From NCBI GenBank assembly GCA_018266845.1, contig JAFDZO010000004.1, positions 62,001 through 126,000 of the forward strand: a DNA stretch of 64,000 nt. The letters are read 5' to 3'. Of this stretch, positions 15,703-24,565 are shown piece after piece. Origin of the DNA: Bacteroidota bacterium (GTDB lineage Bacteria > Bacteroidota > Ignavibacteria > Tepidaquicellales > Tepidaquicellaceae). Both the position numbers and the translations under genes were made by a program. A model generated the notes under the pieces. It searched no databases. It was not told the DNA's origin and saw only the letters and a program-made list of their open reading frames with translations. Within the stretch, counting starts at the first letter, position 1, and each line of letters opens with the position of its first letter.

Positions 15703-15768
15703 GTAAGAAGTGAGATAATATTCACATCATTAGGAACTCCTTGCAAGTTTAACCTATCGTTTACTCTG

Positions 15769-15873
15769 TCCCAAACCTGCGTTTGGGATGGAAAGTGCCC
15801 GTGAAACTTCGCTTTGCAACGAAGCAGGAGCTTCATAAAACATATTCCTTGCGAAGCAGGAGCTTCGCAAGGA
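15769..15873 (+). repeat. 105-bp composite repeat, copy 1
   Basis: The order is: TCCCAAAC/GTTTGGGA hairpin (15769-15788); a GAAAGTGCCC segment; a CTTCG...CGAAG hairpin; AGCTTCATAAAA; and a 12-bp stem TCCTTGCGAAGC/GCTTCGCAAGGA with loop AGGA (15846-15873). The same order recurs at 22299-22402. A partial copy of the GAAAGTGCCCG segment stands at 15444-15482. Confidence 0.8.
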
Positions 15874-15940
15874 GTTCGCTTTCAAATCAGGACACAATTA
15901 ATTTATCCTTATCACACGACAAAAATTTTTCCTAAAAAAT

Positions 15941-16150
15941 TGAATTTAACCGCAAAGATGCAAAGTTTTTGCAAAGCACGCAAAAAAAAATAAAATATTT
16001 TTCCTAAATATCTCAAAAATAAAACTAATTGCGCTTTAATGTCTGTTCTGGCTGAACAATTTCGAGTTTGAAAAATCACATTTTGAGTTTGTTTTTAAGG
16101 TCTTTGCGGACTTCGCTGTCATATTTTGCGTTCTTTGCGTTTAAATTAAT
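15941..16150. repeat. inverted GCAAAG-type repeat element
   Basis: The left arm (about 15941-15990: AATTTAACCGCAAAGATGCA, then more GCAAAG motifs) and the right arm (about 16100-16150, reverse complement AATTTAAACGCAAAGAACGC) are imperfect inverted repeats around a 110-bp centre with no ORF. It looks like a small dispersed non-coding element. Confidence 0.5.
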
Positions 16151-16264
16151 ATTTACAAGTTATAAAAATTTTTTCTTGTAATGAATAATTTATCCACTCC
16201 GCAGGAAATTCGTTTTTTTTAGATTTATATTTTAGCATTTTTCCTGTTAACCTCAAACTAAATA

Positions 16265-20893: not shown

Positions 20894-22039
20894 TTATGGA
20901 GCGATGGTTTCTTTATACTTAAACTTTCCGTCTTTGATTTCAAGAACTACGGCAGGTTTTACTGCATTTCTTTGTTCGTTCATAGTGATATTCCCTGTTA
21001 CGCCCGGGAAATCTTTTTCTTTGGCAAGTTCGTTCTTAATTTTTTCGCCTTCGGTTGAGTTTGCTTTTTTAATTGCATCGAACAACATCATTCCTGCATC
21101 GTAAGCCAAGAAGCTCATTGCATCAGGTTCTGAATTATATTTCGCTCTGTATTTTTTTATGAAATCCTGAATCTTGGGATTAGGGTCTTCGGTTGAAACG
21201 TGCGTTGAAAAGAAGCTGCCTTCAAGCGCATCTTTTGCTTTTCCTTCTGTTAGCTTTTCAGATTCCCATCCGTCGCTTCCGAATAGCGGACATGTTAATC
21301 CGATTTCTCTTGCCTGAATTGAAATTAAATTCACGTCCGTATAATATCCCGGAATGAAAATTGCTTCGGGATTTTTTGCTTTTATGCTTGTTAACTGCGC
21401 TTTGAAATCCTTATCGCCTGCTGAATATTTCTGCTCTTCGATAATTTCTCCGCCCATCTGTGTGAAGATTTTTCTGAAGTTTTCTGCAAGTCCTGTTGAG
21501 TAAGCATTTTTCTGGTCAATGAGCATTGCAACTTTCTTTACCTTCATTGAGTTAAGCGCAAACTTGCTCATAACCGTTGCCTGAAACGGGTCAATGAAAC
21601 AAACTCTGAAAATATAATCGCCTATTGCTGTAACTTCTGGATTGGTTGATGCAGGTGAAATCATCGGAATTTTATTCTGCTGGCAGATTGGCGCGCCGGC
21701 TTTACTTCGTGAAGAAGCAACTTCACCGATGATTGCAACAACTTTATCCCTATTGATAAGTTTTTGAACTACGGTTTGGGTTTCCTGAGGTTTGCCCTGA
21801 TTATCTTCCGTAACTAATTTTACCTGTTTGCCTAATAATCCGCCGGATTTATTTATTTCCTCAACTGCTAATTTTAAGCCGTTATCTGAAGAGATTCCGA
21901 AAGTAGCTTCGCTTCCTGTTAAAGATGCAAATTGTCCTATTAAAATTTCATTTCCTGAGCCGCCTTTGTTGCATGAGTACAAAGTAAATCCGATTGCAAT
22001 AAAAATTGCAATTATAGAAAATTTTGCAAAGTTTTTCAT
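20894..22039 (-). CDS. livK: branched-chain amino acid ABC transporter substrate-binding lipoprotein
   Basis: The 381-aa protein has a lipoprotein signal with Cys23 (GFTLYSC) and the type I periplasmic binding fold of the LivJ/LivK family. Visible blocks are ILIGQFASLTG, GLKLAVEEINKSGGLLGK, VVAIIGEVASSRSKAGAPIC, IPMISPASTNP and the two-lobe hinge region DGWESEKL. It captures branched-chain or related amino acids for LivH-type permeases. In Gram-negative bacteria this protein is usually soluble; a lipid anchor is less common but known. First gene of the split liv operon. Confidence 0.92.
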   Translation of the reverse strand: MKNFAKFSIIAIFIAIGFTLYSCNKGGSGNEILIGQFASLTGSEATFGISSDNGLKLAVEEINKSGGLLGKQVKLVTEDNQGKPQETQTVVQKLINRDKVVAIIGEVASSRSKAGAPICQQNKIPMISPASTNPEVTAIGDYIFRVCFIDPFQATVMSKFALNSMKVKKVAMLIDQKNAYSTGLAENFRKIFTQMGGEIIEEQKYSAGDKDFKAQLTSIKAKNPEAIFIPGYYTDVNLISIQAREIGLTCPLFGSDGWESEKLTEGKAKDALEGSFFSTHVSTEDPNPKIQDFIKKYRAKYNSEPDAMSFLAYDAGMMLFDAIKKANSTEGEKIKNELAKEKDFPGVTGNITMNEQRNAVKPAVVLEIKDGKFKYKETIAP

Positions 22040-22161
22040 TGTTTGTTTAATGGTATTATTTGAAAATATTTTGTGAAAAATACCTTAATTTGATTTTAAA
22101 AACAATTTAGTTTGAGTTTCAAGTGCCAAGATTCAAGTTATGAATTTAGAGTCAAGCAAAT

Positions 22162-22465
22162 CTCATCGCACGACAAAAAATAGTTTTAGAATGTATAATT
22201 TTTTCGAAATTAGACATTTCATCAGGACTTACTAATAATACAGTAGCCCCATCCTAAAGAGGTTGTGTGAAAAGTCAAAAACTAATTGAAGGTTCTTCGT
22301 CCCAAACCCCGTTTGGGACGGAAAGCGCCTGCAAAACTCCGTTTTGCAATGAAGCGGAGCTTCATAAAATATATTCCTTGCGAAGCAGGAGCTTCGCAAG
22401 GAGAAATACTGACTTTGAGACAGCCTTTTTAGGATAGGGCTACAAATTTTTTGTCGTGTGATGAG
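22162..22465. mobile_element. MITE-like element, 304 bp, 20-bp TIRs, 9-bp target duplication
   Basis: The left end is CTCATCGCACGACAAAAAAT (22162-22181). The right end, read in reverse complement, is CTCATCACACGACAAAAAAT (22446-22465), 19 of 20 identical. Both are directly flanked by CAAGCAAAT (22153-22161 and 22466-22474), a 9-bp direct repeat typical of transposition. There is no transposase ORF. A second inverted pair GTAGCCCCATCCTAAA.../...TTTAGGATAGGGCTAC lies inside, and the centre carries copy 2 of the 105-bp repeat. A solo end (ATCACACGACAAAAA) occurs at 15911-15925. Confidence 0.8.
22299..22402 (+). repeat. 105-bp composite repeat, copy 2
   Basis: Same hairpin order and orientation as at 15769-15873: GTCCCAAAC/GTTTGGGAC (22299-22319), a GAAAGCGCC segment, GCAAAAC/GTTTTGC, AGCTTCATAAAAT, and TCCTTGCGAAGC/GCTTCGCAAGGA with loop AGGA (22375-22402). 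This copy is inside the MITE-like element. Confidence 0.8.
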
Positions 22466-22669
22466 CAAGCAAATATGCTTCCAAGGATGTAGTGTTGATG
22501 TGAAGTATTGCGTAAAATAATAACGATTTGAAATTTGGCACTTGAAACTTGGCACTCGCGAGTGCTTCTACATTGTATTTCATTGGAAATAAAGTTATTT
22601 TTAAGGTTTTATAAAACTAATAAATTAATTCAAAAACTGAATAGAAAAAGAGCAGGTATAAACGATTAA

Positions 22670-23776
22670 ATGAAGTTACAAAAAAGCAATTTGACAAATA
22701 TAAAGTCCAACGATAACAGACGACGAAGACATTATCACAGACCAAAACCTCAATCGGAAAATCAACCGAAAAAGAATTTGACTGAGAATCCTATACAGCA
22801 GCAGCAGCCTAAAAAGGAACCTGTTCAGGAAAAACGTTCAGCGAATAATTTTCCTTTGGTTTCCGTAGTTGTGCCTCTATTGGATGAAGAAGATTCTCTT
22901 CAGGAACTCGCTTCAAAAATAGAGAATGTATTTTCCGGTATTAATTACAATTTTGAAGTTATATTCATAGATGACGGAAGCACGGATAAATCATTTGATG
23001 TAATTAGAAATCTTCACAGAAGAAATCCGCGGTTCCACTGCATAAAATTCAGAAGAAACTATGGAAAATCGGCAGCGCTTGCAAAAGGATTCAGAGCTGC
23101 AAAAGGCAGTATTGTAATCACAATGGATGCAGATTTACAGGACGACCCGAATGAAATTCCAGAATTGATTAACATGATAAACTCAGGTTATGATTTAGTT
23201 TCAGGCTGGAAGAAAGTAAGATACGACCCCTTTATAAAAAAATACACATCCAGATTTTTTAATTATGTTACATCAAAGCTTTCAGGTATCCGCCTGCATG
23301 ATTTTAATTGCGGACTAAAAGCATACAGAAAAGAAGTTGTTAAATCGGTTCGTGTATATGGTGAAATGCACAGATACATTCCCGCAATAGCTCATTTATC
23401 GGGATTTAAAGTTACGGAGAAAATTGTTAAGCACCATGCAAGGAAACACGGCAAAACAAAATTCGGTCCCGGAAGATTCCTAAGCGGATTTTTTGACGTT
23501 CTTACGCTTGTATTCACACACAGGTTTATGAAAAAACCGCTGCACTTTTTTGGAGTGCTCGGTCTTACAAGCGCGGGATTGGGTTCACTAATTAGCTTAT
23601 ACCTTATTGCTCTAAAATATTTAGAGGGAAAAAATTTAAGCGATAGACCTCTCTTTCTTGGCGGAATATTTTTAATAATTGTAGGTATTCAGTTGTTCTC
23701 CATAGGGCTTTTGGCAGAAATGATGACTAAGTACAACGAAAAAGATGATGATATTCAGATAGAAAAATTATTTTAA
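22670..23776 (+). CDS. GT2 family glycosyltransferase (polyprenyl-phosphate glycosyltransferase type)
   Basis: The 368-aa protein has a 65-residue polar, basic and Gln-rich N-terminus. A GT2 domain follows with VVVPLLDEEDSL, IDDGSTDKSFD, the NYGKSAALAKGF block and the catalytic MDADLQDDP. Two membrane helices (about 295-320, 330-352) close the protein. This is the layout of DPM1/GtrB/ArnC-type enzymes that load a sugar onto undecaprenyl phosphate on the cytosolic face. The basic tail at the N-terminus is unusual. It is 21 nt upstream of the lpxA operon and may be co-transcribed. Confidence 0.88.
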   Translation: MKLQKSNLTNIKSNDNRRRRHYHRPKPQSENQPKKNLTENPIQQQQPKKEPVQEKRSANNFPLVSVVVPLLDEEDSLQELASKIENVFSGINYNFEVIFIDDGSTDKSFDVIRNLHRRNPRFHCIKFRRNYGKSAALAKGFRAAKGSIVITMDADLQDDPNEIPELINMINSGYDLVSGWKKVRYDPFIKKYTSRFFNYVTSKLSGIRLHDFNCGLKAYRKEVVKSVRVYGEMHRYIPAIAHLSGFKVTEKIVKHHARKHGKTKFGPGRFLSGFFDVLTLVFTHRFMKKPLHFFGVLGLTSAGLGSLISLYLIALKYLEGKNLSDRPLFLGGIFLIIVGIQLFSIGLLAEMMTKYNEKDDDIQIEKLF

Positions 23777-23797
23777 AAGTTTTTTAATTCTTACTTA

Positions 23798-24565
23798 ATG
23801 AAATTCGCCTCCGTAAGCAGCAAAGCGAAAATCGGGAATAATGTTACGATAAAAGATTTTGCTGTAATTGAAGATGATGTTGAAATCGGCGATAATGTTG
23901 AAATCGGCTCTAATACTTTTATAGGTAATGGTGCGCGTATTGCAAACGGTGTGAAAATTTTTCATGGAGCCGTTGTCAGCACAGTTCCGCAGGATTTGAA
24001 ATATAAAGGCGAACCGACCACTCTTGAAATTGGCGAGGGAAGTGTTGTGCGGGAATATGCTACTCTCAACAAAGGGACAACTTACAATGATAAAACTGTC
24101 ATAGGTAAAAATTGCCTTATAATGAATTACGTTCATCTTGCCCATGATTGTATAGTCGGCGATAATGTGATTATTGCCAACAGTGTTCAGTTCGGCGGAC
24201 ATGTTGAAATTGAAGACTGGGCAATTATAGGCGGAATGGTAGGCGTTCACCAGTTTGTAAAAATAGGGCAGCATTCTATAGTGGGGTTCGGATTCCGGGT
24301 TCCTAAAGATGTTCCCCCGTTCATCACTGCCGGACACGACCCGCTGCGATTTGAAGGGTTAAATCTTGTAGGGCTTAAACGAAGAGGGTTTTCGGATGAA
24401 GCAATAAAAAGTATTTCCGGCGCTTACGATGTAATCTATAAAAGCGGACTGAATGTTTCCGACGGTATAAAAAAATTAAGAGAAGGCAATATTACAAAGG
24501 AAGTTGAAACCATAATTAAGTTTATCGAGGGAAGCACAAGAGGAATTATTCGCGGGGAAAAATGA
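23798..24565 (+). CDS. lpxA: LpxA-type UDP-GlcNAc acyltransferase (first of two)
   Basis: The 255-aa left-handed beta-helix protein has hexapeptide repeats over residues 1-180 and a helical C-terminal domain (GLNLVGLKRRGFSDEAI). The catalytic His of E. coli LpxA (His125 in IAHDC) corresponds to His116 in HLAHDC. LpxA transfers a hydroxyacyl chain from ACP to UDP-GlcNAc, the first step of lipid A synthesis. The stop overlaps the next start (ATGA). First gene of a tight operon with a paralogue, CYTH, panB and nrnA. Confidence 0.93.
   Translation: MKFASVSSKAKIGNNVTIKDFAVIEDDVEIGDNVEIGSNTFIGNGARIANGVKIFHGAVVSTVPQDLKYKGEPTTLEIGEGSVVREYATLNKGTTYNDKTVIGKNCLIMNYVHLAHDCIVGDNVIIANSVQFGGHVEIEDWAIIGGMVGVHQFVKIGQHSIVGFGFRVPKDVPPFITAGHDPLRFEGLNLVGLKRRGFSDEAIKSISGAYDVIYKSGLNVSDGIKKLREGNITKEVETIIKFIEGSTRGIIRGEK

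Follow-up and report, generated by a model that had tools for sequence, protein, structure and literature searches.

Between two divergent genes in the window, by which we mean the whole 64,000-nucleotide stretch of a Bacteroidota draft genome analysed here, lies a short sequence bounded by inverted repeats. What kind of element is this, and which transposase could have moved it? The element (22162-22465, 304 bp) is intergenic, between a periplasmic binding protein gene (20894-22039, minus strand) and a family 2 glycosyltransferase gene (22670-23776, plus strand). Its 20-bp terminal inverted repeats (TIRs) are complementary at 19 of 20 positions: the left one (22162-22181, plus strand) is the IS4/ISAba33-like end CTCATCGCACGACAAAAAAT, the right one (22446-22465) reads CTCATCACACGACAAAAAAT on the minus strand. 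The same 9 bp, CAAGCAAAT, adjoin the element on the left (22153-22161) and on the right (22466-22474). The 20-bp TIRs and intact 9-bp target-site duplication (TSD) described in the initial annotation are both present. Only one ORF, an unlikely one of 107 amino acids, lies over the element, and in the interiors of the MITEs nothing scored meaningfully as a remnant of a transposase. We conclude with high confidence that the sequence is a MITE, a transposon that is not autonomous, and that its ends are those of an ISAba33-like insertion sequence (IS) of the IS4 family. The element is not itself a member of IS4, because it encodes no transposase; none was found in the genome either.

The element belongs to a family. 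A genome search for the family ends, CTYAYCACACGACAAAAAWT, with up to three mismatches returned 64 sites, and the reversed-pattern control returned none. These ends form about 30 paired elements of 219 to 475 bp. Searching with the whole element gave two more full-length copies, 88-89% identical to the one in the window, besides many partial copies. Subfamily A is about 280 bp long and has about 27 copies, subfamily B (304-306 bp) has three, including the window copy, and subfamily C (219-221 bp) has two. The interiors, at least three in number, are unrelated, and the subfamilies have only the ends in common. In the window copy the left shell of subfamily B (22182-22242) is common to L015 and L016, and is found at 79% identity in L031, a 257-bp element in which a B shell surrounds another interior. 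The window holds a second MITE of the family at 15908-16185 (subfamily A, 278 bp), with the TSD TAATTTATC at 15899-15907 and 16186-16194. The insertion sites are AT-rich and intergenic, they avoid long ORFs: the longest stop-free stretch over an empty site is 137 amino acids and most are below 80. A search of 43 other genomes of the order found no copy of the family, its ends are private to one genome among 44. The sequence is therefore neither unique nor fixed in relatives, the two findings that the initial annotation had named as speaking against it. Elsewhere in the window genome, L082 (G000:C25, about 23290-24300) contains several unpaired, same-strand copies of an end-like sequence, CACATYACWCGAC, spaced roughly 110-280 bp apart, a possible array of single ends.

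One family member is a chimera. L017 (G000:C2, 2805-3177) is 373 bp long; the first 194 bp are those of A, the remainder is the right part of B, and a perfect 9-bp pair, AATAATCAT, flanks the whole. Had two resident copies simply crossed over, the flanks would not match; the chimera therefore probably transposed as a unit after it had formed. A search of the literature for prokaryotic MITEs of nested, chimeric or composite structure gave no relevant result.

The TSDs are characteristic of the family as a whole. Over 30 paired elements the flanking repeats have an identity of 0.867 at exactly 9 bp and of 0.29-0.38 at 5-8 or 10-13 bp. The 9-bp repeat is perfect in 13 of the 30 and matches at 8 or more positions in 18 (10,000 shuffles gave a mean of 0.6 and a maximum of 5), figures that are slightly selected because L089 (375 bp, without a 9-bp repeat at its ends) was omitted and the outer end pair of L076 was picked among alternatives. 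Together with the many copies, the TIRs and the lack of convincing coding capacity, these duplications support the classification as a MITE.

Intact flanks had been taken to mean recent movement, this argument is weak. Subfamily A copies are 89-97.5% identical to their own consensus, the three B copies are 93-95% identical to theirs and 88-89% identical in pairwise comparison. With a divergence of 5-7%, (1-d)^18 predicts that about one 9-bp pair in three stays perfect, which is near the 13 of 30 observed, so the intact flanks do not show recent movement. As to empty sites, the MITE is missing from the orthologous intergenic region in a genome of the same genus (G001); that region, however, has about the same length (426 bp) and is not alignable, so it offers no clean empty site. 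Within the genome no convincing empty site was found.

The ends point to the origin of the family. Complete ISs in other genomes carry the same core, CT....ACACGACAAAAA, at their ends. Complete IS4-family elements with ends CTNNGTACACGACAAAAAWT are present in L126 (1165 bp), L157 (1162 bp) and L200 (1189 bp), and have perfect 9-bp duplications (L126/L137, AGGAAAAAT; L157, TTTCCTCTT; L200, AAAAATTTC). The L126 transposase (353 amino acids) matches DDE_Tnp_1 and the IS4-family model NCBIfam NF033591 (E 1.5e-64), the transposases of L157 and L200 are its homologues at 41-42% identity. For the L126 protein, the spacing Y-(2)-R-(3)-E-(6)-K, which defines IS4 (PMC2266710), is readable in the translation of this transposase as YKQRWTIENLFGYLK (L099 1501-2562). 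Direct repeats in IS4 are about 10 bp long, 7-13 bp by subgroup (PMC2266710, Table 1), and the 9 bp found in the MITEs, L126, L157 and L200 lie within this range. The nearest named plasmid relatives are ISAba33-like, at about 42% identity, and the ends of ISAba33 (CTTTGTACACGACAAG / CTCTGTACACGACAAA) have the same core as the MITE. The initial guess of an IS4-like transposase holds, because the ends match complete IS4-family elements with a DDE transposase and 9-bp duplications.

The MITE and these ISs share their ends alone. The MITE differs from the ISAba33-like IS4 group (NF033591), whose end core and 9-bp duplications it has, in its missing transposase gene, its unrelated interior and end positions 3, 5 and 6: its ends read CTYAYC... 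against CTNAGT... in typical IS ends, a mismatch at positions 5-6. The match to an autonomous element is thus one of the core. The search for full IS elements with these ends, suggested in the initial annotation, succeeded for core-sharing ISs, in other genomes only; among the matches listed, none of the complete ISs had ends identical to those of the MITE. The CT start and 9-bp repeats are compatible with both IS10 and IS50; where IS50 has Y at position 9, the MITE has A.

We could detect no source of such a transposase in the genome itself. A PF01609 profile search gave no match, not even a fragment, and an IS4 transposase protein query found no homologue there. Elsewhere in the taxonomic family the same query was positive in six genomes, and 9 of 14 control genomes were positive for PF01609. 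With no PF01609 match in a genome that is 98.14% complete, and no copy found in 43 others, the MITE family looks private to this genome and orphaned. As a draft in 46 contigs, the assembly could lack an IS whose multiple copies had collapsed, and in the relatives G012 and G030 transposon-type ends do lie at contig ends. We nevertheless consider it unlikely that an autonomous IS4 parent persists in the genome and was dropped from the draft in this way, given the high completeness, the absence of even a fragment or homologue, and the fact that, close to contig edges in this genome, the matching ends are those of MITE copies and not of ISs. Most likely a parent IS entered the lineage, drove the expansion and was then lost, or is absent from the draft. 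The family is probably immobile now, because no transposase of IS4 type is detectable in the genome. G012, which is of another genus, contains two MITE-sized elements with IS4-type ends (L128 1616-1977, 362 bp; L129 1498-1774, 277 bp), one with a perfect 9-bp duplication and the other with 8/9, and no transposase was detected in that genome either.

The interior of the window copy is layered. The second inverted pair seen in the initial annotation is present at 22243-22272/22414-22443 (83%). It contains the arms of a host palindrome, GTAGCCCCATCC (22243-22254) and GGATAGGGCTAC (22432-22443), each with half of a loop, GTAGCCCCATCC-TAAA at 22243-22258 and TTTA-GGATAGGGCTAC at 22428-22443 (both plus strand). 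Between them, splitting the loop in subfamily B, is a 169-bp inverted-repeat element (22259-22427, plus strand) with ends GAGGTTGTGTGAAAA / AAGGCTGTCTCAAAG. L031 holds the uninterrupted palindrome, CCCCATCCTTTAGGATGGGG, in the form CCCCATCC-TTTA-GGATGGGG. In L018, L025 and L023 the inner element occurs alone, without the IS4-type shell, and is again flanked by complementary arms; not every copy fits, the arm pairing in L019 and L021 is poor. The split palindrome, the standalone copies and the uninterrupted form in L031 bear out the suggestion of an element inserted in an element.

Relatives of the inner element are found in another genus. In G010, inverted-repeat elements of 119 bp (L252 645-763 and L253 1051-1169) have ends GAGGCTGTGTGAAAA and lie in CCCAATC hairpin loops. 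All 10 positions of the hairpin arms pair; at least 8 do so in 1.3% of random pairs. The loop halves are TGGA/TGGA and GGGA/GTGA, a pattern that we read as a duplication of 4 bp. Those of the window genome are often reverse complements of each other (TAAA/TTTA) and not direct repeats, one possibility is correction of an imperfect palindrome. Some insertion sequences target the loops of palindromic repeats, for example IS1397 inserts in PU/REP loops. The inner element resembles IS1397-type sequences in occupying hairpin loops, its own ends being GAGGCTGTGTGAAAA.

Several parents were considered for the inner element. IS1182 was one candidate origin, to which the element was not assigned. For IS256, a PF00872 search of the genome gave no match, and this origin was rejected. 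In L254 (G007:C42, 790-1950) a CCCAAGC-AGGA hairpin is split by a GAGGCTGTGTGAAAAC end, after which comes a transposase gene of the IS110 family, beginning about 130 bp inside the GAGGCTGTGTG end; we have not adopted this gene as the parent because it may be a later insertion. At contig edges in G030 (L250, L251) ends AGAGGCTGTGTGAAAATTC adjoin TAGCCCACGG arms, which suggests an unassembled multi-copy element targeting palindromes.

The inner element contains a cluster of four hairpins with covarying stems (22296-22402), in agreement with the inner hairpins first noted. The four hairpins recur at many other sites in the genome, and the cluster is present outside any MITE too; a further one lies at 15768-15874 in the window, likewise outside any MITE, and the subfamily A MITE at 15908-16185 is 33 bp away. 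In 16 copies, seven stem pairs have changed on both sides, a count reached in 0 of 500 shuffles. The hairpins have been kept, the count by itself does not imply an RNA function, because copy relatedness and hairpin-templated repair also raise it.

It could be argued from this covariation that the host keeps the interior as a structured RNA or regulatory hairpin array, the IS ends being a mere vehicle. The element has a strong predicted fold (-138 kcal/mol) and terminator-like sites on both strands, which would suit such a role. We think this very improbable, however, since an Rfam search with the element gave no match, the cluster is found outside MITEs, the interiors of other subfamilies are unrelated, and templated repair yields paired changes as well. 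The earlier suggestion of a structured RNA was accordingly not upheld for any known one. A chance or decayed inverted repeat with no transposon deserves almost no credence: the full B interior is known in three copies only, but the TSD statistics of about 30 elements refute it, the control pattern counts are zero and IS4 elements match.

We therefore return to a MITE of IS4 origin. Its movement would have been by cut-and-paste, with a DDE transposase from a past parent IS acting in trans to bind the 20-bp ends and cut the element out; the excised element would be joined into a staggered target, and repair would leave the 9-bp duplication. From the split palindrome we infer that the subfamily B shell came first and had a palindrome, whose loop received another inverted-repeat element, the one with the four hairpins; shell and inner element together would then have spread as a single unit. 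A broader and quite tentative idea is that IS4-type ends are a general wrapper that captures unrelated palindromes (AACCGCAAAG pairs, CCCAAAC clusters, AGGGTG hairpins and TAGAGACGCAAT hairpins). A separate mobile element may seed these by hairpin-loop insertion with 4-nt loop duplication, the arrays growing by nesting and then travelling inside MITEs.

In kind the element is ordinary. It is like other bacterial MITEs in size, TIRs, TSD, stable predicted fold and AT-rich intergenic sites, which MITEs favour (PMC10969869); QMITE2, for example, has 7-9-bp direct repeats, 23-29-bp TIRs and a strong fold (PMC10969869). It is unlike usual MITEs in that at least three unrelated interiors occur under one end type, in the nested palindrome-loop element, in the chimera, and in that the parent transposase was not found in the genome. 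The unusual part is the orphaned family and the layered palindromic interior.

The family is an orphan MITE burst tied to a named transposase group through end sequence and duplication length, in a host genome from which that transposase is now apparently gone. It offers a readable case of how bacterial hairpin arrays can be built, by loop insertion, pickup by MITE ends and spread. The chimera, with its perfect duplication, suggests that an exchange of interiors can leave the ends mobile.
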